Of a DNA stretch of 64,000 nucleotides, positions 11,701 to 52,689 are shown piece by piece. Below the pieces are notes generated by a model. That model had not been told where the DNA came from, did not search any database, and was given only the letters and a program-made list of their open reading frames with translations. Each line of letters opens with the position of its first letter. The stretch's first letter is position 1. The position numbers and the translations under genes are program-made. Location of the stretch: positions 75,231,706-75,295,705 of the forward strand of contig OZ020586.1 in the NCBI GenBank assembly GCA_963971535.1, read 5' to 3'. The stretch comes from Notolepis coatsorum. Its lineage: Eukaryota; Chordata; Actinopteri; Aulopiformes; Paralepididae.

Positions 11701-11898
11701 TTTGTGGTGCGGCACGTACCATGATTCGGTCGTCTGATCGGCCTCTTTAATGTCAATTCTCTTTATGTGTCCCGCTGTGATTAGCTTGTCAATCTCAGCG
11801 CGGTACACAGTAGCTTGAGCGGGGTCTCTGGCTAGGCGCCGCTCTGTGTTCGATAGATACCGCTCCGTCGCTTCTTTTGGGGCGTGGAAGGTAGGCAT
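8713..11898 (-). CDS. BEL/Pao retrotransposon Pol, 5'-truncated
   Basis: A 1061-codon uninterrupted frame. Order of domains: reverse transcriptase (about 1-230, with SGDIKGMFLQV and the catalytic-box position SFYVDNCLQS at 194-203), the Pao-type connection region, RNase H (HVFSDASEVAYGS, LWSDSMTVLTWI), integrase with zinc-binding His/Cys (HHAGAERVF to RTCLDCRKW) and core residues in STGMDCFGP, LLSDHGTNF and GGTWEREV, and the C-terminal domain usual in this family (LLHYLPSLQTRQKWVKERD). The reverse-transcriptase box reads YVDN where YVDD is the textbook form. The frame starts inside the reverse transcriptase; Gag and the A17-type protease are absent upstream, so the copy is incomplete. The intact frame suggests a fairly recent insertion. 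Confidence 0.92.
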   Translation of the reverse strand: MPTFHAPKEATERYLSNTERRLARDPAQATVYRAEIDKLITAGHIKRIDIKEADQTTESWYVPHHKVHHNGKDRIVFNCSYQIGSQNLNKELLPGPTLGPSLLGVLLRFRQNKVAISGDIKGMFLQVRLVEEDKPLLRFLWRERIGDEQPSIYQWEVLPFGTTCSPCCATFALQKHVAEDPAADEEVRQSVGNSFYVDNCLQSVSTPEEAEALLLKLRASLIKGGFDLRQWASNDPQVLRSLSPEDKAASSETWMATIPGEAQEMTLGLVWRFKTDSLHYRHTPLTKEQGRLISLPTTRQSVYRTLARQYDPLGCILPYTTRAKMIVRALWDKDQGWDDPIPDHLASTWREWETELSSLPGVNIRRSYFPPTVRPETCQMDLHVFSDASEVAYGSVAYLWAREEGGEIHTAFILARSRIAPRKQQSIPRLELCAALVGAQLATLIQRELSIPVQRTILWSDSMTVLTWIQSDSCRYKVFVGVRITEIQDLTEAACWRYVDTKQNPADVITRGISLDDLTRHNLYSDGPEFLKLPEEEWPTPTPREASEEETEKKKSMFCGLTHTLVPTDPNIDDCPTLESAQLKTFLWHHPEVPSTTNINAANYEEAELLLLQRAQRDSIPDELDCLQGSKPVPSDSRLLHLAPESDAHNLIRVGGRLRRAPDLTDDVKFPIVLNSRHKVTELIIKKYDEDVHHAGAERVFAEIRRRYWILQGREAVRRFQRTCLDCRKWRAQPSIPRMADLPPCRLRLGDKPFHSTGMDCFGPLYVKKGRGTEKRWGIVFKCMTTRAIHIELLPTMSTDSFLMAFRRFTARKGKPSILLSDHGTNFKGGERELRESFQAMGPELKTHLAPSQIDFQFNPPNAPHFGGTWEREVRSIKTALYVVLGAQTVAEEVLTTVLTEIEGVLNSKPLGYVSSDVADVDPVTPNTLLMGRLDPALPQTVYRPEEANGRRMWRYSQVLADKFWNSFLLHYLPSLQTRQKWVKERDNLTEGTVVMIIDQSLPRAMWPAGRVSKVITGADGKVRAAEVLVQGRTYTRPVARLIELPRLPDSLDDDHDPLTL

Positions 11899-12253
11899 AC
11901 CCTCTCGCCTCAGGCGAATGAAAAACTATTATTTATATTTGATATATTAACGTTATATTGTGCATTGGAAACGCAAACATACTTAAAATGAGTAAATATT
12001 ATTCATTTTAAACATGTTTATTTTATTTCTAGGGCTCTAAAAAGAAAAATACAAAAAAAATATTTTCTTCTTCTTCTCTCTTTTAACCAGGGAGGGCGGC
12101 GCTCTAGCGCCCACTATCGGCCGGCCGCCACTGCTCTGAACCTTGGTGCTATCTGGCGAACCACCCCGCGTTTACACCCATTTAAGCAGAACCAACATTC
12201 CACCGTCTCCGTCATCAACGGGTCAGGTAAAAATAATGCGTGGAGAGTGAGCC
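11899..12253. other. No recognised feature beside the truncated BEL end
   Basis: AT-rich sequence where BEL gag and protease would be expected. Includes a GC-rich patch GGCCGGCCGCC near 12119. No Gag-like frame is seen. Confidence 0.4.
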
Positions 12254-30246: not shown

Positions 30247-31218
30247 TGTGAGGTTTTGTCCGCTGCTCACCCACTCGCTCTGTTCCTTTAAGGTATTTCG
30301 GTTAATTAATTGCATTCTCCTCTCCACACGCTTCTTCCTGTAGATGCCGTTTGATTGGTGCTCCCCCAACCACACGCTTCTGGAGCAATGATCAATTCCA
30401 TCCCGCAGCTGTCACTGCTTGTCATTAAGCACCCTTGGCTTTATATACCCCGATCCCCCTATTATTGATGTTGGATCGTTCTGAAATATTCTCTGCATTT
30501 GCTTGTTCCTTCCGTTGCTGCTTTCCCTGTTCTTTGCCTCCCAGGACTCTCGTGAAGTATCCCGTTTGGAGAACCTGCTTCCCCGTTACGAAGCGCTCGC
30601 CCTGTTTGATCCGCCCGCTTCACGTATGCGCTCCGGTGAGTTTTTGTAAAGACAGTCTTTTGGATTCAATCGTTTTTGCGTGTGTTAAAGCACTGAAGAG
30701 ATCCTGTTTTTCGTTCAGACTGTTCTCACCCTTTTTGCCTGTTGGATTTTCACTTTGGATTTATTGTTTGGACATTGCTCACTGTGTGTTTCACACCGAA
30801 GATTTTGTCACTTGGATTTATTGTTTGGACATTGCTCACTGTGTGTTTCACACCGAAGATTCTGTCACTTGGATTTATTGTTTGGACAAGTCACTTCACC
30901 AGTCACCTGTCAGTTTACAATTGTGCACTGAGCTAACTCGGACTCTCTCTCTCTCCCTATCCGCCTCTCCCCCGGAGTATATGCTGGGAGGATTCTGCAG
31001 AGCGGCTCATACGTCACGGACAAATTCCACAAGCGTCACCCCCCCGGGAGAAGCTGCAGAGCAGCAAACATTCCTCACATTCCTGTTTCCCAGTTTCTTC
31101 TGTTCTCCACCAATTTCTTTCTGTTTACTCAGTAAATAAACACGCCCTTGATTTTGGCTAACTCTAAAACAACTCTCTCTGTGCCGTTTGCGTTTGGGGT
31201 CGGTGTCAAACCGTAACA
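30247..31218 (+). repeat. 5' LTR of the gypsy element
   Basis: Begins TGTGAGGTTTTGTCCG and ends CAAACCGTAACA. TATA box at 30441-30447, AATAAA at 31135-31140. An internal 57-bp unit (TTGGATTTATTGTTTGGACA and TTTCACACCGAAGATT) is present about three times at 30755-30890. The 234-codon frame over the LTR is also present in the 3' LTR and is not taken as a gene. Confidence 0.95.
30441..30479 (+). promoter_or_regulatory. LTR promoter and predicted self-primer
   Basis: TTATATA at 30441 lies about 28 nt upstream of GTTGGATCGT (30470-30479), the expected spacing from TATA box to transcript start. That 10-mer is exactly complementary to ACGATCCAAC just after the LTR. In Tf1/sushi-group elements the 5' end of the transcript primes its own reverse transcription (established); its use here is inference from the match and its position. 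Confidence 0.75.
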
Positions 31219-31220
31219 TT

Positions 31221-31230
31221 ACGATCCAAC
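31221..31230 (+). other. Predicted self-priming primer-binding site
   Basis: ACGATCCAAC begins 2 nt after the 5' LTR and is the reverse complement of the presumed transcript start. No TGG-starting tRNA 3'-end complement occurs at this position, which favours self-priming over tRNA priming. Confidence 0.75.
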
Positions 31231-31234
31231 CAAT

Positions 31235-32335
31235 ATGACGACCCCAGCCGACACAGAGAGAGTCAGAACAGCACTAGCTGGCCAGATCGAGTTAACCAAG
31301 GATCACAGTCACCAACTAGACAGGGCTGCGGCTGCGGTACAGGAACTCAGGGAGCAGGTCCAGCCTATTCAGGGGTCCCTGGGCGCTCTGGCAGACCAGC
31401 AGTCAAGTATTCTCCTCCATCTACACGCGCTGAGTGACACCGTTAACGCCTTGCTTGTACCCCCACTTCCTTCAGGAACATTGGCCGGCGCATCACCCGC
31501 AGTCCTGGCAGGCCCCGCGCTTCCCGATCCCGCACCTCGGGAGCCCCGTCTCTCCCAACCACGGCTGTTCGACGGCAACTTCGAGGATTGTGCCACATTC
31601 ATCATGCAATGTGAGTTGGTTTTTCGTCATCAACCCAGTCGTTTCACTTCAAGAGGAGCCCAAGTGGCCTATATGACTAACTTGCTCTCAGGCCGGGCAG
31701 CCCAGTGGGTCACTTCCTCCTGGGCAATGGAGGCAGACTTCTGTTTCTCCTATCCAGACTTCGTGGCTGAGCTCCGCAGGGTGTTCCACCATCCAGCCCG
31801 TGGTCTGGACCCTGGAGCCCGGTTGGGTACCTTCCGGCAGGGCAGCGGCGGGGTTACCGACTACGTGCTGGAGTTCAGACTGGCGGCGGTGGAGAGCGGT
31901 TGGAACGACCAAGCACTTCGTCTTACCTTCATGAGGGGGCTCAGCGACGCAGTCAGGGACCAGCTCGCGACCCGGGAGGAACCTGAGTCCCTCGAGGACC
32001 TGTTCAGCCTCGCCATTCGCATCGACGGACGCCTCCAGGAGAGAAGACGTGAGAGAACCCGACAGGGACCTCCTGAGGTACTCCGAACCCCCCGTACTCG
32101 TGACGGTACTGCTGGTCGCTCTGCCCCCAACACGACTGGTGGTCTTTTCCCCTCCCGTTCGGTACCCGAGGAGGAACCCATGCAGCTGGGACGTTCTCAT
32201 CTGAGCCAGGCTGAGAAGGAGGCGAGGTTCAGGTCCGGTCTTTGCCTCTACTGCGGTCGGGAGGGACACCGAATCGCCAACTGCCCCACCCGGCCAAAAG
32301 ACCAGGCTCGCCGGGACCCCGGGAGATCCTGGTGA
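31235..32335 (+). CDS. Gypsy Gag polyprotein
   Basis: An intact 366-codon frame with a true ATG 4 nt after the primer-binding site. An N-terminal helix-rich part with heptad-like spacing (about 20-70) is followed by a Pro-rich linker, a capsid-like domain ([19 protein letters not shown] to about residue 260), an Arg-rich stretch, and one CCHC zinc knuckle at 337-350 (C-x2-C-x4-H-x4-C). Gag builds the particle and packages RNA. The end overlaps the pol frame, which is open from 32215 in the -1 register. No canonical X-XXY-YYZ slippery heptamer was seen in the overlap. Confidence 0.93.
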
Positions 32336-33929
32336 GCCGCTTTTCTCATTCCCAGAGCCGTGCACCACCTGGCCATCTGATGAGCGTCACCCTGGCCTGG
32401 GCGGACCAACGGGCAACGGTGGAGGCACTCATTGACTCGGGGGCAGACGAGAGTTTCCTCGACTTCGAGTTCGCTACCCGGGCCAACATTCCACTTGAGG
32501 ACCTAGTGAGGCCTTTGGAGATATTCGCATTGGACCAACACCGCCTGGCCGACATCTCTCAACGCACCTGCCCTGTCATGCTGACCATTGCTGGTAACCA
32601 CGTTGAGAGACTCCAGTTCCTTATCACCAGATCCCCTCTTGTCCCATTGGTCCTGGGTCGGCCCTGGCTCGCGCTGCACGAGCCCCACATCGCCTGGTCC
32701 TCCGGTACCATCAAGGGCTGGAGCTCCTCCTGTCATGCCCATTGTCTACAGGCGGCGTCCTGTCCCCCGCCCCGGAGGTCCGTTGGTGAGCCTCCTCCAG
32801 ACCTTTCGACCATACCCCCCGAGTACCACGACCTCATGGAGGTTTTCAGTAAGTCCAGGGCTCAGGCCCTTCCACCCCACCGTCCGTACGACTGTGCCAT
32901 CGACCTCCGCCAAGGGGCTCCCCTTCCCGGCAGCCGCCTCTACAGTCTGACCGTTCCGGAGAAGAAGGCGATGGATCAATACATCTCTGAGTCCTTGGAA
33001 GCAGGACTCATTCGGCCTTCCTCCTCCCCGGTGGTGGCCGGTTTCTTCTTTGTTGGGAAGAAGGACGGGGACCTTCGACCCTGCATCGACTATCGCCAGC
33101 TCAACGAGATCACCATTAAGAACAAATACCCTCTACCTCTCATGAACTCCACCTTCGAGCCTCTCACCCAGGCTACCGTCTTTACCAAGCTGGACCTCCG
33201 GAGTGCCTACCATCTTGTCCGTATCCGTGAGGGCGATGAATGGAAGACCGCCTTCAAGACTCCCAGGGGCCACTACGAGTACCTGGTGATGCCGTTCGGC
33301 CTCACCAACGCTCCGGCGGTATTCCAGGCACTCATGAACGACGTCCTTCGTGACATGCTGGAGGAGTTTGTGGTAGTGTACCTGGACGACATCCTCATCT
33401 TCTCCAAGACCCTCGAGGAGCACATCCAGCATGTCCGCCGTGTGCTGGAGCGCCTCCTCCACAATCGGCTCTTCGTCAAGGCGGAGAAGTGCCGATTCCA
33501 CTCCGACTCCGTCGATTACCTGGGCTTCATTGTGGAGAAGGGCTTGACCCGAGCTGATCCTCGCAAGATCCAAGCAGTGGAGGAATGGCCTGAACCCACC
33601 TCTCGGAAGGAGTTACAGAGTTTCCTCGGGTTCGCCAACTTCTACCGAAGGTTCATCCGGAACTACAGTCAAGTGGCGGAACCGCTTACCAGACTGACCT
33701 CTCCCGCCCTGCCGTTCGACTGGTCCCCAGCGGCGTGTGCTGCGTTCCGCTCCCTCAAGAAGAGGTTCACTTCCGCCCCGATCTTGCTCCACCCAGACCC
33801 CAAGAGACAGTTCATCGTTGAGGTGGACGCCTCGGATACTGGACTGGGAGCTATCTTGTCCCAGCGATCGGCAACGGACCAGAAGGTACATCCGTGCGCC
33901 TTCTACTCGCGTCGGTTCCTCCCTGCCGA
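32215..33929 (+). pseudogene. Gypsy Pol part 1: protease, reverse transcriptase, RNase H start
   Basis: Open in the -1 register relative to gag. Counting from 32242, the aspartic protease motif DSGA is at residues 65-68 ([13 protein letters not shown]). Reverse transcriptase follows with [26 protein letters not shown] and the catalytic YLDD at 33379-33390. RNase H begins at [14 protein letters not shown]. After [11 protein letters not shown] the frame is lost near 33930: comparison with the usual spacing in this family suggests about 22 nt missing, and the conserved continuation [18 protein letters not shown] is found in another frame. Beyond the break the original frame runs only to 34029. 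Confidence 0.9.
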
Positions 33930-34335
33930 GAGGAGCTGCTGGCGGTCGTGGCTGCTTTGGAGGAGTGGCGTCATTGGCTTGAGGGGGCCGAGGAGCCGTT
34001 TACCATCTGGACGGACCACAAGAACCTGACGTACATCCGTGCTTCCAAGCGCCTCAACGGCCGGCAGGCAAGATGGGCCAGCTTCCTCAGTCGGTTCGAC
34101 TTCTCGCTGACGTTTCGTCCTGGTTCCCGCAACACGAAGGCCGACTCCCTGTCCCGGTTACACTCCAAGGGGGCTCCAACCACTGAGGACCCGACTCCCA
34201 TCCTTCCGGAGGCCAGGGTGGTAGGAGTCGTCACCTTGGGCATCGAGGGGGTGGTAAGGCGTGCCCTACGCTTCCATCGCGCTCCAAGCAATGTACCGAG
34301 TCATCGTCTCTTCGTCCCCGACTCAGTCCGGTCCC
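33930..34335 (+). pseudogene. Gypsy Pol part 2: RNase H end and linker
   Basis: Second register, starting at [15 protein letters not shown]. Contains the RNase H end ([12 protein letters not shown] and [10 protein letters not shown]) and the linker to integrase. The frame is lost again near 34335. A one-base deletion in the CCCGGTCC region would account for the register change (inference from frame arithmetic). The residues that follow in this register to 34433 are nonsense. Confidence 0.85.
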
Positions 34336-35644
34336 GGTCCTCCAGTGGGGCCATACCAGCCGGTTCGCCTGCCACCCGGGCGTTCATCGCACGTTCTCCT
34401 TCCTGGCTCGTCGTTTCTGGTGGCCCACCATGAGGAACGACGTCAAGGAGTTCGTTCTGGCCTGCGCGGTCTGCGCCCGCAGCAAGGCCTCCCACCAGGC
34501 ACCCTCTGGGCTGTTACAGCCACTTCCCGTTCCGAGCCGTCCTTGGTCACATGTGGCGCTGGACTTCGTCACAGGTCTTCCCTCCTCCCAGGGGAACACT
34601 TGCCTTCTGACCGTGGTGGATCGGTTCAGCAAGGGGGTTCACCTCGTGGCCCTTTCCAAGCTTCCCTCGGCGGCCGAGACGGCGGACCTCCTAACTCACC
34701 ACGTGTTTCGCCTCCATGGGTTTCCCCAGGACATCGTCTCGGACCGGGGGCCCCAGTTCACTTCCCAGGTATGGCGGGCTTTTTGCAAGGGATTGGGGGC
34801 AACGGTCAGTCTTTCCTCTGGTTATCATCCCCAGACTAACGGACAAACGGAGAGGATGAACCAGAGCGTGGAGTCTGCTCTTCGGTGTGTGGCAGCCGAG
34901 AGACCAGCTTCTTGGAGCCGTTTCCTTCCCTGGGTCGAGTACTCCATCAACTCCATGGTCAGTTCCGCCACCGGCCTCTCACCCTTCAAGGTATCCCTGG
35001 GCTACCAACCCCCTCTTTTCCCTGCACAGGAGATGGAGGTGGCAGTTCCCTCCGTGCAGGACCACCTCGACCGGTGCCGACGGGTCTGGGAGATCACCAG
35101 GACCGCGCTGCTCCGGACATCTGAGCGCGCCTGTCGTGGGGCCGACCGGCGCCGGGTTCCTGCGCCGACGTACCACCCTGGGCAGAGGGTGTGGCTTTCC
35201 GCGAGGGACCTCCCGCTTCGGTCCTCGGCCAAGAAACTTAACCCCCGTTTCGTCGGACCTTTCGAGGTTCTGAAGGTACTCAGTCCGGCGGCTCTGCGCC
35301 TTAAACTTCCTGCGTCCATGCACATTCACCCCGTTTTCCACGTGTCCCGGGTTAAGCCTGTTTCCCTCAGTACCCTGATGCCTCCTGCTCCGGATCCACC
35401 ACCCCCCAAGATGGTGGACGGTCACCCCCAGTGGCAGGTCCGCCGGTTGATGGGCGTTCGACGGCGGGGTCGGGGGTTCCAGTACCTGGTGGACTGGGAG
35501 GGTTACGGCCCGGAGGAACGGAGCTGGGTCTCCCGCCAGCTCATCGTGGATCCCGGCCTGATCACAGACTTCCATCGTGCCCATCCGGGCGAGCCGGGTC
35601 GGCCTGGTCGCCGGGTGGCTCCCGTGGAGGGGGGGGTACTGTGA
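34336..35644 (+). pseudogene. Gypsy Pol part 3: integrase and chromodomain
   Basis: Third register. The integrase zinc-binding His/His/Cys/Cys set runs from about 34365 to 34470 (ending [10 protein letters not shown]). The catalytic core shows D in [12 protein letters not shown] in [13 protein letters not shown] and E in [10 protein letters not shown]. The C-terminal part has the [19 protein letters not shown] segment and then a chromodomain ([17 protein letters not shown]), which in chromoviruses directs integration to particular chromatin. The stop codon lies just inside the 3' LTR, as is usual for compact gypsy elements. Confidence 0.9.
35625..35639 (+). other. Polypurine tract
   Basis: GGAGGGGGGGGTAC immediately before the 3' LTR start; the expected plus-strand primer. 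It is inside the end of the pol frame. Confidence 0.85.
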
Positions 35645-36611
35645 GGTTTTGTCCGCTGCTCACCCACTCGCTCTGTTCCTTTAAGGTATTTCGGTTAATT
35701 AATTGCATTCTCCTCTCCACACGCTTCTTCCTGTAGATGCCGTTTGATTGGTGCTCCCCCAACCACACGCTTCTGGAGCAATGATCAATTCCATCCCGCA
35801 GCTGTCACTGCTTGTCATTAAGCACCCTTGGCTTTATATACCCCGATCCCCCTATTATTGATGTTGGATCGTTCTGAAATATTCTCTGCATTTGCTTGTT
35901 CCTTCCGTTGCTGCTTTCCCTGTTCTTTGCCTCCCAGGACTCTCGTGAAGTATCCCGTTTGGAGAACCTGCTTCCCCGTTACGAAGCGCTCGCCCTGTTT
36001 GATCCGCCCGCTTCACGTATGCGCTCTGGTGAGTTTTTGTAAAGACAGTCTTTTGGATTCAATCGTTTTTGCGTGTGTTAAAGCACTGAAGAGATCCTGT
36101 TTTTCGTTCAGACTGTTCTCACCCTTTTTGCCTGTTGGATTTTCACTTTGGATTTATTGTTTGGACATTGCTCACTGTGTGTTTCACACCGAAGATTTTG
36201 TCACTTGGATTTATTGTTTGGACATTGCTCACTGTGTGTTTCACACCGAAGATTCTGTCACTTGGATTTATTGTTTGGACAAGTCACTTCACCAGTCACC
36301 TGTCAGTTTACAATTGTGCACTGAGCTAACTCGGACTCTCTCTCTCTCCCTATCCGCCTCTCCCCCGGAGTATATGCTGGGAGGATTCTGCAGAGCGGCT
36401 CATACGTCACGGACAAATTCCACAAGCGTCACCCCCCCGGGAGAAGCTGCAGAGCAGCAAACATTCCTCACATTCCTGTTTCCCAGTTTGTTCTGTTCTC
36501 CACCAATTTCTTTCTGTTTACTCAGTAAATAAACACGCCCTTGATTTTGGCTAACTCTGAAACAACTCTCTCTGTGCCGTTTGCGTTTGGGGTCGGTGTC
36601 AAACCGTAACA
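35640..36611 (+). repeat. 3' LTR of the gypsy element
   Basis: Same length as the 5' LTR, with three differences seen by eye: C/T in the CACGTATGCGCTC region, C/G in CCCAGTTT and A/G in GGCTAACTCT. Carries the same TATA box and 10-nt self-primer (35863-35872). Confidence 0.95.
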
Positions 36612-41326: not shown

Positions 41327-42005
41327 GTCAAGTCAAGTCAAGTCAAGAGTTTTATTTGTCACGGCATACAAGTATACAATGAAATGCGGGGGGTCTTGCC
41401 CGCAATGATTGTGCATAATACAATAATAATAATATAATAAGAATCCAATAGAACGACATTGTGCAATAATACAAGTAATCAAAGTAGGGCATATCGGTAT
41501 ATGTACATGAGTTTTTACAGAGCATGGTAGGACATGCTAGGTCCTGTGATAGTGCAATACACTGTTAGCTACGGATGAGGCACTGGGTCTTTATGTACAC
41601 TGCTATACAATGCTATATTATACAATCTCAAGTTATACTATACTATTCTTAAAGTGACCTTTCCTTTTGTAAAGTGACCATAAGTGTGAGCGTGTGCAGC
41701 ATGAGTGTGTGTGTGCTCATGTTAAAGTGGCTGCTAGTGTGTGAGCGTGTACAGTGTGTGTTTTGTGTGTGTGCTCATGTGTGCTTGTGTGTGGAGAGTT
41801 CAGTGTTTAAGGCTCTGATGGCCTGGGGGAAGAAGCTGAGCCGAAGTCTCTCTGTCCTAGTTGCTGGTGACCGCAGCAGCTTGAACAGGCTGTTGTTGGG
41901 GTGGTGAGGGTCTTTCATTATTCTGCAGGCTCTGGATTTGCACCTCTTGTTATATAGGACCTGCAGGGGTGGTAGTGCAATACCCGTGGTACGCTCGGCG
42001 ATCGC
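41327..42005 (-). mobile_element. 5'-truncated LINE (same family as 53.1 kb), minus
   Basis: Starts with the (TCAAG)n tail complement, then AGAGTTTTATTTGTCACGGC and 3' UTR, and near 41.78-42.0 kb the end of ORF2 in reverse ([20 protein letters not shown] and [15 protein letters not shown]). Compared with the 53 kb copy it lacks a few residues after LLRS. 5'-truncated at about 42005. Confidence 0.88.
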
Positions 42006-42660
42006 CATCTGTGTATGTAACGTTAAAATTCACAAGTCACACGAGAGAGTTAGGCAGGCGCCCCGACCGACCAGTAGGAGTCGCAGGACCAGGACACACC
42101 CCACCGGCTTCCCACCCGCTAACACTGCTAATTGTGTTAGGGACGACCAAGCCGGAGGTCCCACTGAGAATTATACTTTTAACACACTTAATATACTTAA
42201 AATATACTTTCATTGTGGGAAAATATACTAATGTTTGACTTTTGACCAAAGAAATCATTCTAGAATAGTCTATTTTGCATAATTGAAGACTTCCTTCTGT
42301 TCTTCTTTAGACTAAAAAGGAAGCACTAAATCATCTCCCACTATTTCCCTGTAACAGCCATAAAACATTCACCCTTTAATACTAACAAAAGGCACACCCT
42401 CAGGGCATGAAGCCTTGTTGCCTGGTGTCAAAAGGCTGTGTCCATCAATACAAACCCATAAGAAAGTCATCAGAACAGGCTTCCCAACCTCAGCTGGGAG
42501 CCCTTGTATAAAGACGGGGTCATCTGAAACATTCCTAATCAAACTAGACACTTGGTCAATCAAACTGGCCACTATTCTGACACCAAAACTACTGCCAACT
42601 GATTTTTGCATAGAAGCTATACTGTATAAACCATGCAGCTTATAATCAGAAGCTACTGAA
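42006..42660. other. No recognised gene
   Basis: Short frames on both strands (for example 42369-42611 minus) have no recognisable domain. Confidence 0.3.
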
Positions 42661-42663
42661 AAA

Positions 42664-42756
42664 ACCTATGTAGTTCTCTGTGTGGTTCTCTGTGTTGTTC
42701 CCTATGTAGTTCTCTATGTGGTTCTCTGTGTGGTTCTCTGTGTTGTTCCCTATGTA
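42664..42756 (+). repeat. 12-bp minisatellite, segment left of element A
   Basis: Units TGGTTCTCTGTG and TAGTTCTCTATG, with TGTTGTTCCCTA variants. Each unit holds a GTT triplet. The same array continues between A and B and after B. Confidence 0.9.
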
Positions 42757-42775
42757 GTTCTGTGTCGTTATGGCT

Positions 42776-42928
42776 TGCTCAGCACCTGTCTGCATATATC
42801 TCGCTTCAGCGTATATACACTGAATAAAAACTTCCACCATGTACCTTTACATGCCAGCATTCATCTGACCACACCCCCATCTGCTTACCTTCATAAGCAG
42901 GGGTGGGGCCACACACTCATCTCCTTCT
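42776..42928 (+). repeat. Left inverted terminal repeat of A
   Basis: About 150 bp from GCTCAGCACCTGTCTGCAT through ACTGAATAAAAACTTCCACC to ACACTCATCTCCTTC, pairing with 45482-45630 with one mismatch seen by eye (CTGCTT/CCGCTT). Contains AATAAA. Confidence 0.88.
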
Positions 42929-43019
42929 CAAATTTCATCCACAAGCGAGTGCCTGTTATATGCCCACTTGACGTGGAGAAAAAATGTAGTCTGAGGAAAG
43001 GAAAACAGAAGAACAAGGA

Positions 43020-43089
43020 GATACGTTGACATCATATCTTTATTTTCTCTCTCACTATTTTCGAGAAAATACGGCGATATTGTCTTCGT
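43020..43089 (+). other. 70-nt block identical in elements A and B
   Basis: Identical base for base to 46341-46410, starting GATACGTTGACATCATATCT. It contains TATTTTCTC and GAGAAAATA, a possible 9-bp stem. The surrounding sequence is clearly more diverged between A and B, so this block looks constrained or recently homogenised. Confidence 0.8.
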
Positions 43090-45342
43090 TACTGGAGTGT
43101 CTGGATCATTCCGACCTTCAACGGCTTTTTCGTATTAGGAGCTCACGCCGCTGACATGCTTCCCAGCTACAGTTCTCCTTGCTGCGGCTGGATGGGGTTA
43201 CCCTCCGGCAACACAGCTGGACTGTAGGACGCACCGACTGTTGTGAGAAGCGGTTGTTTCCAGGTTGGGTACGTACTGTTTTGCTTGCGAGCTCTGGTTG
43301 TTGTTGATGCTGTGGGGGTTAGCTAACAATTTACGAAACGCAGACTCCAGGCTAGGGTCCTCTGCTCGGCTTAAACGGCGGTCGGAGGATCTTGGTCTGA
43401 CGCCCATGATGGTTGATCTAGTGGGCCGCGACTAGATCCTGGTGATCCCAGGATTCTCGAGCGGATGCTTCTCTGTCTCGTGCAGGCCCCATCTTTCATA
43501 TACAAATGAAAGTATACCCTAACGAGGAAATGTGGGCATAGGATCTTCTTTATCGGGAGTTCCATTCTCAAAGGGCCCCGCTGTATGTCTGGATCACCGT
43601 TGACAACTGTGTTCTGACATTCTTTTTCTTTTCCCTTTTGGGGGAGGGACTGGGACAGCGGCCTGTCTGAAGTGTGGCTTGTTATGTCATTGTGTACAGT
43701 TCAGGTGATAGCTGCTTAGCTTGCGTGCTAGTTTGTGGACTACTGTGTTAGCCAGTCAGCTGTTAGCTGCGCAGCTGTTAGCTGCAGCGTTAGCTTGCTG
43801 TGTTTACCAGGCTAGTAAACGTTAGCTTGTTGCTATCAGCCGAACGGCTGTTAGCTTAATGCTACACTGTTGAACGTTTTCTGTGACTATAACATGCCTT
43901 AAACACTCTGACTACGACATCATCTTTGACAGAGGATGTTAGTCGAACCTACCGGGAGCCCTGCCAGCGAGGACTGCGTCAACATGGAGAACCGTAGCGG
44001 CTGGGTGGCGCAACGACGCTGCCCTCGTTGTCAACACAGGAATGCTGTGTTCAACGTCGGTGCCCCGTTAGCCAGATTGCAGTTCGCTTGGCCTGCGCTC
44101 AGGGTAGGAAGGTCCGGACCGGACCTTAAACACTTCTTCTTTCCTTCCCTTCTAAATGTTTTGTAATAACGATGTTTTCCAAAACGGGTGTTGCTGCAAT
44201 ACATTGAGGATACGACGCGTGTTGTGTGTGAATTGTCTTGTCACTGGTATAGCTTCTCTCTTGAGAACATGTGTGTTCCTGTACCGTGAACTCACAACTA
44301 AGGCGGTTAATTAACCTATAAAGCTATGCTTAGTGACATATGAGTGAAGAATGAATTCTTTTCTCAGCCTGTAATGACAATGAACAGTGTGTTCACATAT
44401 TAACAGGGTTACCTGTTCAACTTGGCCGTATAAAGGGTAAGGTAGGAGGGGTGATCCCCCCGGTTTCCCTGGGGCTTCGCCACCCTCCTCTCAGACATGT
44501 TGTTTACAATATATTGTGTCACTGTGTTTGTGGGGATACGATGTAACCCTTAGCTTAATTGCTGGGGTTGTGCTAACCGCTTGAGAAACTATATTTTCCC
44601 AAAGAAAAGATTGTTTGGTCGCTTATCGTGTGTGCTTAGCAAGGCCTGTGGCCGATACATAATCGAGGATTCTGTATTCTCTCGTTATGAAAAACGGCGT
44701 TCGTCTGTAGCAAGAGTGTACTTTGCCATTTTTTGTTGTGATAAAGGGTTGTGTGTGTCTTGTGATCTACAACTGGGTTAGGTTTGGCCACAGAAGCACA
44801 TGTGTAAGTCTGGTACCGGGGCTCTTAAAGGGGCCCTCTCTATTCTGTGTTTTTCCCTTAGTAAAAATCAGATAGCAGGTTAGCACATGAGCTGTGTGAA
44901 GCTGTTAGACACTTCATGTAGCTGACTATGACTGTGTCATGCTCTTTTTTGTCATTACATCGTATCATGGGTGTGGGGTCGTAAAGGGGTGAACTGGTAA
45001 TCCTTTCCTCCCCTGCTACGGCCTTGCCACGGGGTTGGGTTTGCTCTTGACCCCGTGATTTTGGGGGCAGTAACGAGGTTGTTCCTTCCGTTCGTTCCCG
45101 GGTGGCATGCGGGTTGTGCGTGTGTGTAGTCGTGGGGTCAAGCCACGGTCTGCTCACCCTGTGCGTTGAGTTGCTTGAGTGCCTCTTCGCACGTCGGATC
45201 CGTCGCCCTCCCGTGAACCTCCAATAGGGGGGGTATCCTCCATTAGGGAGGGTCGGGGGGGCTCGGTCCTCCCCGGTCTGATGGTTGTGGGGGGGCCTCA
45301 GCGGGGTACATTTGTCGGGCTATGGCTCCGCTCAGCCCCTGT

Positions 45343-45435
45343 TATGCAGACAGGTGCTGAGCAAGCCATAACGACACAGAACGAAGGGTTATGTATATAA
45401 CCCAGTTCTGTGAGTTATGGTGCGCTCAGCACCTG
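45343..45435 (+). repeat. Internal complementary region of A
   Basis: 45343-45382 is the exact reverse complement of the left end 42757-42796. 45386-45435 is the exact reverse complement of the right end 45621-45670. GAA lies between. In DIRS elements this region templates the joining of the two ends into a circle (established for DIRS-1). Confidence 0.88.
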
Positions 45436-45481
45436 GACGCCGCTGCGGCCCTTGATTTTTCATTGTGGTGAAATTTGTTGG

Positions 45482-45630
45482 GAAGGAGATGAGTGTGTGG
45501 CCCCACCCCTGCTTATGAAGGTAAGCGGATGGGGGTGTGGTCAGATGAATGCTGGCATGTAAAGGTACATGGTGGAAGTTTTTATTCAGTGTATATACGC
45601 TGAAGCGAGATATATGCAGACAGGTGCTGA
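45482..45630 (+). repeat. Right inverted terminal repeat of A
   Basis: Complement of 42776-42928, from GAAGGAGATGAGTGTGTGGC to ATGCAGACAGGTGCTGAGC. Confidence 0.88.
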
Positions 45631-45671
45631 GCGCACCATAACTCACAGAACTGGGTTATATACATAACCCC

Positions 45672-46078
45672 CTCTATGTAGTTCTCTGTATGGTTCTCTG
45701 TGTGGTTCTCTGGTTCTCTGTGTGGCTCTCCATGTGGTTATCTATGTGGTTCTCTGTGTGGCTCTCCATGTGGTTATCTATGTGGTTCTCTGTGTGGCTC
45801 TCCATGTGGTTATCTATGTGGTTCTCTGTGTGGTTATCCATGTGGTTATCTATGTGGTTCTCTGTGTGGTTCTCTGTGTGATTCTCTGTGTGGTTCTCTG
45901 TGGTTCTCTATGTGGTTGTATGTGTGGTTCTCCATGTGGTTCTCTATGTGGTTCTTTGTGTGGTTCTCCATGTGGTTCTCTCTCTGTATGGTTCTCCATG
46001 TGGTTCTCTCTCTGTATGGTTCTCTATGTGGTTCTCTGTGTGGTTCTCTATGTGGTTCTCTGTGTGGTTCTCTATGTG
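45672..46078 (+). repeat. 12-bp minisatellite between elements A and B
   Basis: About 33 imperfect units of TGGTTCTCTGTG / TGGTTATCTATG / TGGTTCTCCATG. The repetitive open frames in three registers are artefacts. Confidence 0.92.
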
Positions 46079-46100
46079 GTTCTGTATCGTTAGTGGCTTA

Positions 46101-46247
46101 GCTTGGCATCGCTACTGCACTATCTCGCGTACGTGCACGCGTACTGAATAAACCACAAATGTACCTCTAATACCAGTATTAGTCTGACCACACCCCTCAT
46201 CAGCTTACCTTCATAAGCAGGTGTGTGGTCACCTGCTCTCCTCCTTC
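46101..46247 (+). repeat. Left inverted terminal repeat of B
   Basis: GCTTGGCATCGCTACTGCAC to CTGCTCTCCTCCTTC; complementary to 51208-51354 with no mismatch seen. Shares with element A the inner words CTTACCTTCATAAGCAGG and CTGACCACACCCC but differs in the outer GCTTGGCATCG part. Confidence 0.92.
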
Positions 46248-46340
46248 TCGCTTTCACCACAAGGAAGAGGTGCCTCGGTAGATCCCCACACTTGACACCA
46301 TGATGGAAGAAATTGGATTAGGAACAGCTTGGGAAACAAG

Positions 46341-46410
46341 GATACGTTGACATCATATCTTTATTTTCTCTCTCACTATTTTCGAGAAAATACGGCGATA
46401 TTGTCTTCGT
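46341..46410 (+). other. 70-nt block identical to element A
   Basis: Counterpart of 43020-43089. A one-base indel follows, then ACTGGAGTGTCT is again identical. Confidence 0.8.
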
Positions 46411-48466
46411 ACTGGAGTGTCTAGAAGATGATGATCATTCTACAAACCCTCCACCGGTTTTCGTATTGGGAGCACGCCGCTGCATGCTTCTCAACTGCAG
46501 TTCCTTGCTGTGTTTGTTGGGGTGAAACCTGTCAGGCCACAGCTGAACTGTCGGACATGCCGCTGTTGTGAGGAGCGGTGCGTTCCAGGTTGGGTGAGTA
46601 GTGTTTGCTGGCGGGCTCCACTTGTCTGTTAGTGCTATGGGGGCTACTTGACAAAGTTTATGGAAACCGGCCCCAGGCTAGGGTCCTTTGTTTAGCCGTC
46701 TAGGCGACAGAAGGCCTTGGTCTGGCGACCATTATAGTTTTAACTAGTGGGCCGCGACCATTGACACTGGTGATCCCTGTGTGTTCTGGACGAGTGGATT
46801 CTCTCTGTCACCGTGTTAAGACCCCATCTTTCATATCCAAATGAGAGTATTCCTTCACGAGGGGATATGTGCATGTAATGTGCGATAGCGGCAGATTCAT
46901 GTTCAAAGTCAGCTATACAGGCCAGTTGGTACTGTGCTGATTCCGCCGGACGTGTTAATGTCACCGTTGTGAAGCGGTGTTGACGTCTTGTTTTCTCTTT
47001 TCTCTTAAAAAGTGAGGAGGGTTCAGAACGGCGGCCTGTCTGGGTGAGTGTTATGTCATTGTTTACATGTTCATAGCTTACGGTTAGCCGGTCGGTGGCC
47101 TGGCGCGGGGTAGCTTGGCTTCTCGCGCGCCGCCGGGAGCTCGCTCCTGATCGCGTGCGTCGTAGATCGGCGTCTCGCGAGCGGAAGCAATAGCACCCGA
47201 ATGGTTGGAGCAGCCGTTAGCTTGATGCTATTCTGTTGAACGTGCTTTGATTTTTAACATGTTTTACACTCTTGACCACGACGTCATCCTTGACAGGGGA
47301 TGTTCGTCGACCCTGCCTGAGCCTAGACGGGGATTGCGTCAACAAAGAGGGCTGTAGCGACTGGTGGAGCGGCGACGCTGCCCGGATCGAACAACACGGG
47401 ACGGCTGTGTTCTACGGTGGCTTGTGACTGCACTTCGCTGATCTGCGTTCCGGGCAGGTACGGGGTTGGCCAGACCTCATAAACACGTCTTCTGGTTTTA
47501 CCTTGCTAAATGTATTGTGAATAACGGTGTTTTTTCCCAAAACGTGTGTTGTTGCAATGCATTTGAGATACGTTGCGGGTTGTGTGTGAGCTGTTTTGTC
47601 ACTGGCAGTTAGCTTCTCCGTGCAGGTCGTGATGTATTGATCTGGTTGTTGTGTGAGAAACATCATGGTGTTTATGTGTACCGTGTACTCACTACTAAGG
47701 CAACTAACCTATGAAGCTATGCTTGGTGACGAGTGAGTAAAAGAATGTTCTTTCTCAGACTGTAATGACAATGAACAGTGAGTTCACACATTAACAGGTT
47801 TTCCTGTTTTAACTGGCCGTATTGAGGGTAAAATAGGAGGATTGTGTTTCCCCCCCCGGTTCCCTGGGGACTTTATCACCTCCTATCAGACATGTTGTGC
47901 ATTAATTGTGTCTTTTGTGTGGTAGGGATACGATGTAACTCTCAGCTTGATTGCTGAGGTTGTGCTAAATCTGCTGGAGAAACTTATTTCCTAAAGGGAA
48001 ATTGGTTTGGTTGCTGTCATGTGTGCTTAGCAAGGCCTGTGGTCGATACTAATCAAGAATGATGTATTCTCTCATTGTGAAAAAAACGGCGTTCCTCTGT
48101 TGAGTGTTTTTGCCATTTTTTGTAGGTGATGATGGGTTGTGTGTGTCATGTGACCTACAACTGGGTTGTACTGGCCACAGAAGCACATGTGTATGTTGGA
48201 CCGGGGTTCTTAGAGCCCTCTCTATTCTGTGTTTTTCCTTAGTAAAAATCAGATAGCAGGTTAGCTCGTGCGCTGTGTGGAGCTGTGAAACGCTTCATAG
48301 AGCTGACTATGACTGTGTCATATTCTCTTTTTGTCGTTACGTCGTATCATGGGTGTGGGGTCGTAAAGGGGTGAACTGGTAACCTTTCCTCTCCCCATTG
48401 TTCTGTCGGTCAGGGGTACACCCCCTGTCCTTCAAGGTTCCCGTCACGTGGCGGTTCGGCACGTTA

Positions 48467-48498
<32 letters not shown>

Positions 48499-49696
48499 GG
48501 GAGTTCCTGGTCCCACGGCCTGGTATATTGGGCGTGTGCACCGCAGGAATTCCCCCGCCATAGAGTACGTCACCGTGCGCGTCTCTGTTGGTAGGACTTC
48601 CGTGTGCTGTTCAGGTCCATGTGATGGATCTGTTTTCAGGGGGGGTGGTCAGGGCTCCTCCTCACCAAGCGCCTACTCAGGCCTTCTGTGAGTTCGGACT
48701 CCTTCTTCCATGTGAGGAAGCCTCCATCAGAGTACAGAGCCTTCCTCCTCAGATTGTCAAAGTGAGTGGACCCTCTAGAAGGGTCCTTTTCTATTGTATG
48801 TATATTCGATTCAATTCGTTTATTGAGTGTGTATGGGTTCGGTGCCTCTTCCCCGGAGGCCCTAAAACCAGTTTTTTACATGGCTCAAGGTGCAATATAT
48901 TCTTTTCAATCTGTACAGCTCGCGTGGGAAGTCTCTCTGGGGATCCCCGTCTCTTTCCTATGGGAGGGTGGTGGGATGTAAAAATGTGAACATTTTTTAC
49001 CCCGGCTGTGTAGACTGGGATACATACTGTTGATGCTTCCTTCTTTCTATTCCAGAAGTGTTGGAGTTAGGGAGTGTCACACCCCTCTTGTCGTTCCCCT
49101 GGGCGCCTTGGGGATTCAATGACAGGTCTAAATAGCCTGTTCATTGATGGGGGTGTGTCCCGACGCACGTATAGTGCTAGCTCGCTGTAAACAGGCGATT
49201 GACTGGCACGCCTTAGTTGCTTGTGGTTGAAACAGCGTTTTTATAAAGCAACTGAGATGGGGGTTTTTCCTCTTCCGGCGACCACATCCCATGACCTGGG
49301 TGGGTTGTCGACGGATTCTCGTTCATGTCTGGGGGATGATGACGGGATGGATCTGAACATATGTAGTGGGGTCTCACGCCCTTGGGGTGGGCCACCAGGC
49401 GCGGTTTGTCCCAACGTCTGGGTGGCGCCTTCTTTTCATGTTAAGATCAACACGCATATCTGCCCTTCTCCTGGAGTAGGCATGTCGGCGTGGTTAGGGC
49501 ACGGGACTGGTTCTGGTCACGCTGGTCCAGATCAGTTGAACCCGTTGTCCGCCGGGGATGCAGATCTGCTGTTCTGGTACCCTGAGGGACTTGGGCTTTT
49601 TTCAGGGGGAAAAATGCCAGGTCGGTCTGGGTGTCACAGGGTTAAGCGCTATGGAGACCCTGGTTGGGTATGTTTTTACTCAGCACTGTCGTCATG

Positions 49697-49816
49697 GCTT
49701 ACAGCCATGCCATTCTGTACGCGCTCGATCTCGTCGGATCTCGGCCGCTACACAGGTTGGTCCTGGTTAGTACTTGGTTGGGGGACCGCCGGGGAATACC
49801 AGGTACGGTGTGCTTA
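49697..49816 (+). pseudogene. 5S rRNA-derived sequence, copy 1
   Basis: 120 nt aligning end to end with vertebrate 5S rRNA: GCTTACAGCCATGCC at the start, CTCGATCTCGTCGGATCTCG, CTGGTTAGTACTTGG in the middle and GGGAATACCAGGTACGGTGT near the end. The C-box region reads CTTGGTTGGGGGACCGCC, a few changes from consensus. Too diverged in the first third for a functional rRNA. Sits inside DIRS-like element B. Confidence 0.85.
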
Positions 49817-50396
49817 GGGGCTGGTTCTCCATTATTTTTCGCTCCTCTCTCACGCATGGCGAAGAGGGGCCTGTGGGGGTGGTTTTTTGACCTCCTCTGG
49901 TGACCCTGTGCTTCCCGTACCGCCAGGCCCGGTCCGAAGTGATGTTTGCGACCCGTAGGCCTGGGTTAACCCTTTTTGGAAACTGAAACACTTGTACTGC
50001 GGTATAGCCGGTGTATACCCGCAGGTGTGTTTTGGAGTTTTTTCTTGAGGGGTTATAGGAACAACCACCGCATTGGGTAACACCGAGGTGGTTGATTCCC
50101 TGGTGTGTTGGAGCAGTGTCAACTCCCGGGTTCACCGTTTGAGGGTGCCCCTGCACGTTCATGACGTCTGCCAATCGTGTCAGCCTTCTCTGCCTCGACC
50201 CCTCTGGGTGGGGGTTGTTAAATGGAGGCTTGGTCATGCAACACCGCCAGCTTACGCTCCTTCCGCCGGGGCGGCTGTGTTCAGCTGTCCCCTCTGGCGC
50301 CTGTCTCGTCCGCAGTCTCCAGGCTAGGGTTAACAGCCTGTTGCCTGGTTTTTCCCCGGTGCGCTGCCTGCTTCCGTTGGTTAACCTTTTTTGTGT

Positions 50397-50450
50397 GCTT
50401 ACGGCCATGCTGACTGCCTATTCTGCAGGGTCAGTGTGCCAGGCGGTGTA
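50397..50450 (+). pseudogene. 5S rRNA-derived remnant, copy 3
   Basis: GCTTACGGCCATGCTGAC matches the 5' end of 5S rRNA; GTGCCAGGCGGTGTAC downstream may be a remnant of its 3' end. Most of the middle is missing or unrelated. Confidence 0.35.
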
Positions 50451-50475
50451 CTATTGGGGGGACGGGGCCCGCTCG

Positions 50476-50580
50476 GCTTACGGCCATACCGACCTGAACA
50501 CGCCCGGTCTCGTCCGATCTCGGAAGCTGGGCAGGTTCTGGCCTGGTTGGTTCCGCCTGGGAATACCAGGTGCAGTAACT
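50476..50580 (+). pseudogene. 5S rRNA-derived sequence, copy 2
   Basis: GCTTACGGCCATACCGACCT, GAACACGCCCGGTCTCGTCC and GATCTCGGAAGCTGGGCAGG are very close to vertebrate 5S. About 13 nt are missing in the internal promoter (C-box) region, where CTGGTTGGTTCCGCCTGGG replaces the normal longer segment. It ends AATACCAGGTGCAGTAACT. Confidence 0.88.
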
Positions 50581-51067
50581 GAGGGGCCTTTGTCCGAATA
50601 CGCTGGCGATGTGGGGGGCGGGGCACTACGTGCCCACCTGGTGGGGTCTTGATGCTGGCATCATGGACTTCTCCGGGCCCCCATTCCAGGGAGTCCAGTC
50701 CTTTTGGTGGGTCTGGGTCTTCCTTCGTGCTCCGCTGCTACGGCCTTGCCACGGGGTTGGGTTTGCCCTTGACCCCGTGATTCTGGGGGCAGTAACGAGG
50801 TTGTTCCTCCGTTCGTTCCCGGGTGGCATGCGGGTTGTGCGTGTGTGTAGTCGTGGGGTCAAGCCACGGTCTGCTCACCCTGTGCGTTGAGTTGCTTGAG
50901 TGCCTCTTCGCACGGTCGGGTCCGTCGCCCTCCCGTGACGTCCCTAATAGGGGGGCTACCCTCCATTAGGGGGGGTCGGGGGGGCTCGGCCCTCCCTGTT
51001 CTGATGGTTTTGGGGGGCTGTCAGCGGGGTGTATTTGTCAGCCAAGTGGCTCCGCTTGGCCTCCCTT

Positions 51068-51163
51068 GTGCAGTAGCGATGCCAAGCTAAGCCACTAACG
51101 ATACAGAACGTTAGGTTATGACTATAACCAAGTTCTGTTAGTTAGGGGCGATGCTTGGCATCG
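51068..51163 (+). repeat. Internal complementary region of B
   Basis: 51068-51109 is the exact complement of 46079-46120. 51107-51163 is the exact complement of 51344-51400. The two overlap by AAC (51107-51109), the complement of the terminal GTT, giving a 96-nt region. Confidence 0.93.
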
Positions 51164-51207
51164 GACGCCGCTGCAGCCCTTGTCCTCACCTTGTGGTGAA
51201 AGCTTGG

Positions 51208-51354
51208 GAAGGAGGAGAGCAGGTGACCACACACCTGCTTATGAAGGTAAGCTGATGAGGGGTGTGGTCAGACTAATACTGGTATTAGAGGTACATTTGT
51301 GGTTTATTCAGTACGCGTGCACGTACGCGAGATAGTGCAGTAGCGATGCCAAGC
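51208..51354 (+). repeat. Right inverted terminal repeat of B
   Basis: Complement of 46101-46247, followed outward by ATCGCCCCTAACTAACAGAA and TAACCTAACGTT at the element end. Confidence 0.92.
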
Positions 51355-51400
51355 ATCGCCCCTAACTAACAGAACTTGGTTATAGTCATAACCTAACGTT

Positions 51401-51496
51401 ATCTGTGTGGTTCTCCATGTGGTTCTCTATGTGGTTCTCTGTGTGGTTCTGTGTGTGGTTCTGTGTGTGGTTCAGTGTGTGGTTCTGTGTGGTTCT
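51401..51496 (+). repeat. 12-bp minisatellite, segment right of element B
   Basis: Continues the TGGTTCTCTGTG array with TGTGTGGTTCTG variants and ends near 51496. Confidence 0.88.
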
Positions 51497-51814
51497 ACAG
51501 TGGAATTTTGAAGCCGCTCTTCAATTAGCGAGCCACACGTTCTTTTGAAAAGGAGGAGGAACTCCATAAAGACATCTTAAGCACTGGCCTCCACCCATGC
51601 CTTGACCCCACGACCCCTGGGGGTCACCGGCCACAATGCAGTCCCATTTGGGGCCGTGTTGTTGTCCTTATATGGCGGAAGGGAGGCGTGCCGACCCTCG
51701 CCCTTCACTGAACCTGGTCCCTGAACATCCTCAGATCTTTATCAATGCAATCAATTCAAGTTCCAACTCTGTTCTGGTTTGCTAATAGTCGTTTATTTGT
51801 TGTGATACTGAGAA

Positions 51815-51818
<4 letters not shown>
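51497..51818. other. No recognised feature
   Basis: Contains GACCCCACGACCCCTGGGG and a TTATATGG TATA-like word. No gene assigned. Confidence 0.3.
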
Positions 51819-52275
<457 letters not shown>

Positions 52276-52689
52276 AAATTACCCTGTTTCCTATTACAGA
52301 GACAGGACAAACCTTTGCCCAGCTGTCAGGTGCTTCTCCTTGACAGGCCTGAAATCCTCACGCCACTAACAGTACGTTTGCCAGTTTGTCTAAGAAAGCT
52401 TATTCCATATGGAGGTCAAATCCACAGCCTCTCTCAAGGAGAAGCACCTCTTACTGTATGTGATCTTTATTAAGTTGAGTGAGATGTGTTTTTGGTGCTT
52501 GAGCTGGCGGCATCTTTCCTGACTGGACTCACTCAAATTGGACTTGTGAAACAGACAAACATTTAATAAAAAGCAGCCAGATATTAGGTCTTTATTACCC
52601 TGAAATGACTATAATGTCTTTATTACCCTGAAATGACCATACAAGGACATATTTTGTGTTGGTAGTATCAGTGGCCACATTGGATTTAT
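52276..52689. other. No recognised gene
   Basis: Two copies of CTTTATTACCCTGAAATGAC near 52590-52637; no coding potential. Confidence 0.35.

Follow-up and report, generated by a model that had tools for sequence, protein, structure and literature searches.

We analyzed a 64,000-nucleotide stretch of the Notolepis coatsorum genome (GenBank assembly GCA_963971535.1, contig OZ020586.1, positions 75,231,706 to 75,295,705 of the forward strand), which we refer to as the window and within which all coordinates below are given. The window contains two related elements, A and B, which lie approximately 400 bp apart within one kind of 12-bp minisatellite and which very probably belong to one non-coding lineage within the DIRS1-like (tyrosine-recombinase) retrotransposons. 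Element A comprises the following features:

46079..51400, plus strand: element A, non-coding DIRS1-type, 5322 bp
46079..46247, plus strand: left terminus of A, an outer divergent part of 22 nt followed by an exact inverted repeat of 147 nt
46335..48390, plus strand: interior of A in common with B, non-coding
48391..50727, plus strand: segment of A without counterpart in B, about 2.34 kb
51068..51163, plus strand: internal complementary region of A (left half 51068-51109, right half 51107-51163, AAC common to both)
51208..51400, minus strand: right terminus of A, an exact inverted repeat of 147 nt followed by an outer part with a GTT end

A previous sequence-only reading of A had described perfect 147-bp inverted terminal repeats (ITRs) and a 96-nt internal region complementary to 42 nt of the left end and 57 nt of the right end, with the two complements overlapping by one AAC and with GTT at both outer ends. 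Each of these features held when measured again. The longest exact inverted repeat of A spans 147 nt (147/147) and pairs 46101-46247 with 51208-51354. Within the 96-nt internal complementary region (ICR), positions 51068-51109 are complementary to 46079-46120 (42/42) and positions 51107-51163 to 51344-51400 (57/57), such that the two matches overlap in the AAC at 51107-51109, and GTT forms the outermost letters at both ends of the element. Chance complementarity is ruled out by exact matches of 42, 57 and 147 nt. Perfect inverted pairs of at least 30 nt number 17 in the window, 10 of which are located outside A and B; long inverted pairs are not rare in this DNA, and the special feature is the ITR/ICR architecture. 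Folding of the ICR of A as RNA yielded a z score of -7.38 relative to shuffles, as expected for a self-complementary region.

Element B was detected by blastn, using the ends and interior of A as query and the window as target, and comprises the following features:

42757..45670, plus strand: element B, second non-coding DIRS1-type element, 2914 bp
42777..42927, plus strand: left conserved inverted repeat of B, matching 45482-45632 at 150/151
45343..45435, plus strand: ICR of B, complementary to 42757-42796 (40/40) and to 45621-45670 (50/50)
45482..45632, minus strand: right conserved inverted repeat of B, with the right end about 6 bases short of the ICR prediction

B has the same architecture as A, the conserved inverted repeats being accompanied by divergent outer parts, and its interior is related to that of A and is also non-coding. 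The termini and ICR are complete in A and nearly complete in B, and both elements are self-consistent. In the blastn comparison, identity to B was 73% for A 46335-48394 and 95% for A 50730-50989. Across 2558 alignment columns (A 46250-51050, with the A-only segment excluded), the interiors are identical in 77% of ungapped columns, and when the whole alignment is taken 100 ungapped columns at a time, the identity ranges from 60 to 99, with parts at 92-99% and other stretches at 60-75%. The approximately 2.34 kb of A that is absent from B was either lost from B by deletion or gained by A through insertion.

The ends of the two elements have diverged from each other, and the ICR has diverged with them. 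At the left end, alignment of A with B shows 7 mismatches and 4 gap letters, and alignment of the corresponding ICR halves gives equal counts. At the right end there are 8 mismatches and 11 gap letters, as against 11 and 5 in the corresponding ICR halves; these counts are unequal because the right end of B is short. Within each element, complementarity between ends and ICR is exact over the aligned stretches, even though the ends of A differ from those of B. A short motif occurs once at each end and once in each ICR half, which amounts to four copies per element and none elsewhere in the window, and its sequence differs between A and B. A sequence common to both ITRs and both ICR halves is described for DIRS1-like elements in passages of PMC3266345, and joint change of the ends and the ICR is a prediction of the splint model of DIRS circle formation as those passages present it. 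The comparison of A with B provides natural compensatory evidence, in that the ends and the internal region were rewritten together.

We also examined the coding capacity of both elements. None of the eight open reading frames (ORFs) inside A matched a Pfam family, and the six read-through frames of A (46331-51062) yielded no family at E<=1, in agreement with the claim of the sequence-only reading that no reverse transcriptase, RNase H, methylase or recombinase frame is visible. For the six frames of B, the only match was GSAP-16 (E of 0.14, far under the cut-off), and no reverse transcriptase, RNase H or tyrosine recombinase was matched in Pfam. As a control, a long interspersed nuclear element (LINE) elsewhere in the window was recognized as RVT_1 at 3.7e-29; this control is an intact frame and gives no measure of sensitivity for old remains. 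The longest stop-to-stop frame of A is 216 aa (200 simple shuffles: mean 158, maximum 314) and that of B is 153 (200 simple shuffles: mean 126, maximum 239). Mismatches between A and B showed no preference for codon position, and the A/B indels shorter than 60 nt did not keep a coding phase (by length modulo 3, 42 had a remainder of 1, 21 of 2 and 10 of 0). ARAGORN found no tRNA in 42000-52000. With no coding detected, A and B appear to be non-coding elements that lack the genes of an autonomous member.

The elements are framed by three stretches of the minisatellite, each called by Tandem Repeats Finder (TRF) and listed without strand:

42669..42765: 12-bp minisatellite left of B; the call extends a few bases into the end of B
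45672..46083: 12-bp minisatellite separating B from A
51398..51496: 12-bp minisatellite on the right side of A

When the flanks of A are joined over one GTT, the register of the array is restored (26/27), as compared to 16/24 without the GTT. A is thus an insertion at GTT without target duplication and with a clean empty site. The ICR ends, together with the lack of target duplication at A, make a DDE transposon unlikely. The density of GTT in the array (46 in 598 letters, two of which are spacers) is 4.4 times that in the window, and the occurrence of two insertions in the array may simply reflect this density of sites. The minisatellite left of B also features a 48-bp higher-order unit at 42666-42761 (2.0 copies, 97%).

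The arms of the inverted repeats differ at 0/147 positions in A and 1/151 in B, and because they are nearly identical, both insertions look young. Given that the interiors are only 77% identical, the non-coding interior is probably older than both insertions and coding was probably lost before them, which suggests that the lineage moved in a non-coding form. We propose that an autonomous DIRS would provide the enzymes that reverse-transcribe RNA of such an element. The ICR, which contains complements of both ends, would serve as a splint that restores the ends and joins them into a circle at the AAC/GTT junction, and a tyrosine recombinase supplied in trans would integrate this circle at GTT without target duplication. 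Movement in trans by an autonomous partner is what we infer for A and B, and passages of PMC5633606 state that the replication mechanism proposed for DIRS-1 has not been fully shown experimentally. Two gene-less and apparently once-mobile elements point to the sequences that are sufficient in cis. The proposal of the sequence-only reading that A is a non-coding relative of DIRS1-like elements is supported and fits those features that are open to test; element B, the minisatellite target and two 5S rRNA-like segments in A go beyond that reading.

These two segments were identified with Rfam:

49697..49814, plus strand: 5S rRNA-like segment 1, RF00001, 66.2 bits
50476..50581, plus strand: 5S rRNA-like segment 2, RF00001, 52.3 bits, C box largely missing

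Both exceed the Rfam gathering score for 5S_rRNA, which is 38, and four further Rfam matches in 45000-52000 all fell under their own gathering scores. The segments are located in the 2.34 kb found only in A, in sense orientation and without counterpart in B. Each begins at the first base of 5S, and the identity to a 5S yardstick sequence is 98/121 aligned positions for segment 1 and 94/108 for segment 2. A 12-base match to the 5S start is also present at 50397-50408, which may be due to chance. An origin from part of a tandem 5S rDNA array is disfavored for them, in that local scores outside the segments (20 and 19) were within the range of shuffles (mean 20.1 and maximum 31 for the first, mean 17.8 and maximum 25 for the second); the exception to this lack of similarity is six bases common to both just downstream. 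Judged from their sequences, the segments look like old captures of 5S rRNA, possibly mere passengers, for which any function is putative, and capture could have occurred by, for example, template switching. Because the segments are diverged and the insertion of A looks young, the lineage of A probably carried them through earlier rounds. The A-only segment also includes a G-rich run of approximately 34 bases at 48468-48501.

Rather than being passengers, the 5S-like segments could be functional, as in the element Cassandra, by providing an RNA polymerase III promoter or by capturing an RNA-protein complex. The presence of two segments, both in sense orientation and both starting at the first 5S base, is consistent with this explanation, as are the matches of segment 1 to the intermediate element (6/6) and C box (15/18), the TTTTT at 49835 downstream of it, and the fold of segment 2, which is better than shuffles (z of -2.50). 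However, the entire 2.34-kb segment is missing from B, and a transcript starting at these positions would omit the left half of the element. The A box is matched at 10/15 in segment 1 and 11/15 in segment 2, and segment 2, which retains the intermediate element (6/6), matches the C box at only 7/18 and is not followed by a run of four T in 50582-50700. In addition, the fold of segment 1 is no better than shuffles (z of -0.01), and the box matches depend on the 5S yardstick and the box positions assumed. We consider a function of this kind rather unlikely.

Two long blocks within the interiors are identical between A and B:

46341..46409, plus strand: 69-nt block, identical in A and B, long hairpin possible
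50808..50913, plus strand: 106-nt block, identical in A and B

The exact runs of 106 nt, 69 nt and 41 nt (48342-48382) all exceed 40, the maximum reached in 2000 column shuffles. Two folds of the 106-nt block gave z scores of -2.98 and -2.87. The identical blocks could result from selection on cis-signals or from recombination between copies, and the two long ones are candidate packaging or priming signals.

We weighed three other explanations for A and B. The first is that they are ordinary coding DIRS elements with genes that decayed past recognition. The 5.3-kb length of A is typical of coding DIRS, with GaDIRS1 also listed at 5322 bp in passages of PMC3266345, and some ancient remains escape Pfam. 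Nevertheless, arms that differ at 0/147 and 1/151 positions make decay after insertion unlikely, and the six frames of each element contained no Pfam family above cut-off, with neither codon periodicity nor a maintained indel phase. The sequence-only reading had itself raised a mutated DIRS coding region as the alternative, and Pfam read-through, ORF length, codon periodicity and indel phase do not bear it out; we regard such decay as improbable. The second explanation is that A and B are not independent, with a single insertion having been duplicated in the minisatellite and one copy having changed later. The spacing of approximately 400 bp in one 12-bp repeat and the interior parts that are 92-99% identical per 100 columns are consistent with this scenario. 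Yet other interior stretches are only 60-75% identical, and within each element the arms and ICR match almost perfectly, whereas after a duplication A and B would be expected to be alike and the ends of each element to be mismatched, which renders this scenario more improbable still. The third, an assembly artefact around the minisatellite, gains from the tendency of tandem repeats to be misassembled and from the three repeat stretches that frame A and B, but it is the least probable of the three, as the ITR/ICR matches are internal to each element, exact, and present in two sequence versions.

Several observations weigh against the interpretation of A and B as members of a non-coding DIRS1-like lineage, or against parts of it. 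The arm-identity clock assumes that no gene conversion occurred between arms after insertion, and the power of Pfam to reveal very old coding remains is limited. The right end of B is about 6 bases short of the ICR prediction, so that the 3-bp junction is not intact there. The empty site of B also fits less well than that of A; its best register is 23/27, from 45672, with the right end altered. The hairpin of the left identical block is no more stable than shuffles (z of -1.31 in A and -0.89 in B), and recombination between copies, rather than selection, may account for the identical blocks.

A more far-reaching possibility is a long-lived gene-less lineage that depends on autonomous DIRS elements and that kept only cis-signals, namely the end/splint system and the 69-nt and 106-nt blocks, with one branch having functional 5S modules for transcription or for drawing RNA into particles. 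We regard this possibility as doubtful. If it were true, functional 5S modules would make the lineage a tyrosine-recombinase counterpart of Cassandra.

The window contains other repeats. A Ty3/gypsy-type element at 30247-36611 has gag, reverse transcriptase and integrase-chromodomain frames, which are flanked by two 972-bp direct repeats of 99.7% identity. A BEL/Pao-type element is represented at 8716-11925 by a minus-strand frame of 1070 aa that has Pao peptidase, reverse transcriptase and integrase zinc-binding domains. To the right of A, a CA repeat of approximately 200 bp followed by a 42-bp tandem repeat occupies 51816-52287, and a 434-aa frame at 53010-54311 matches a LINE-type reverse transcriptase and ALKBH8_N.

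Exact-pattern scans of viral contigs gave no match, and those of genome contigs, from which records near the genome of the window may be excluded, matched only one bacterial metagenome-assembled genome, with 20 identical bases and nothing beyond, which we judged to be chance. A literature search for non-autonomous DIRS or for DIRS with 5S returned nothing recognized as such among the matches listed, with a Repbase or Dfam entry being possible; the passages of PMC5753468 concern domesticated DIRS genes. The survey tool described in passages of PMC3266345 requires coding domains, and elements such as A and B would consequently go unlisted. Surveys that depend on coding domains would overlook such elements in general.

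Among known retrotransposons, large retrotransposon derivatives (LARDs) are non-coding derivatives of long terminal repeat (LTR) elements, with a long non-coding interior between complete terminal signals. A and B resemble LARDs in their long non-coding interior, whereas the ends are LTRs in LARDs and ITR/ICR structures in A and B. The term LARD occurs in a passage of PMC8498967. The attribution of a DIRS-1 circle-joining design to A is supported by three teleost DIRS1-like elements, GaDIRS1, GaDIRS2 and TnDIRS1a, as passages of PMC3266345 (Piednoel et al. 2011) describe them, in that part sizes and the GTT/AAC junction are close. Like A, all three have a GTT start and an AAC junction, and GaDIRS1 and GaDIRS2 share its GTT end. 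Their conserved ITR is 144-148 nt long (147 in A), the divergent ITR 19-21 (approximately 22 in A), the right extension 26-27 (approximately 25 in A), and the ICR parts 36-46 and 56-57 (42 and 57 in A). These part sizes, together with the 5S start, point to a ray-finned fish as host. According to the same passages, the three elements were discovered by way of their coding domains and encode gag, reverse transcriptase-RNase H and tyrosine recombinase, none of which was detected in A or B. SIRE, as presented in passages of PMC6681497, is likewise a non-autonomous derivative of a tyrosine-recombinase retrotransposon, namely VIPER, which belongs to another group; it consists of 185 bp and 220 bp of the VIPER ends around approximately 30 bp. 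Unlike SIRE, A and B retain ITR-ICR-ITR ends and a long common non-coding interior. Cassandra, Ajax and Helenus (TRIMp3) are also non-autonomous and carry sequence derived from small RNA, which is 5S rRNA in Cassandra and Ajax, and passages of PMC10886601 describe them as short LTR elements of 311-1263 bp with the RNA-gene sequence inside their LTRs. Unlike in TRIMp3, the 5S-like segments reported here lie in the interior of a 5.3-kb ITR/ICR element, and only A has them.

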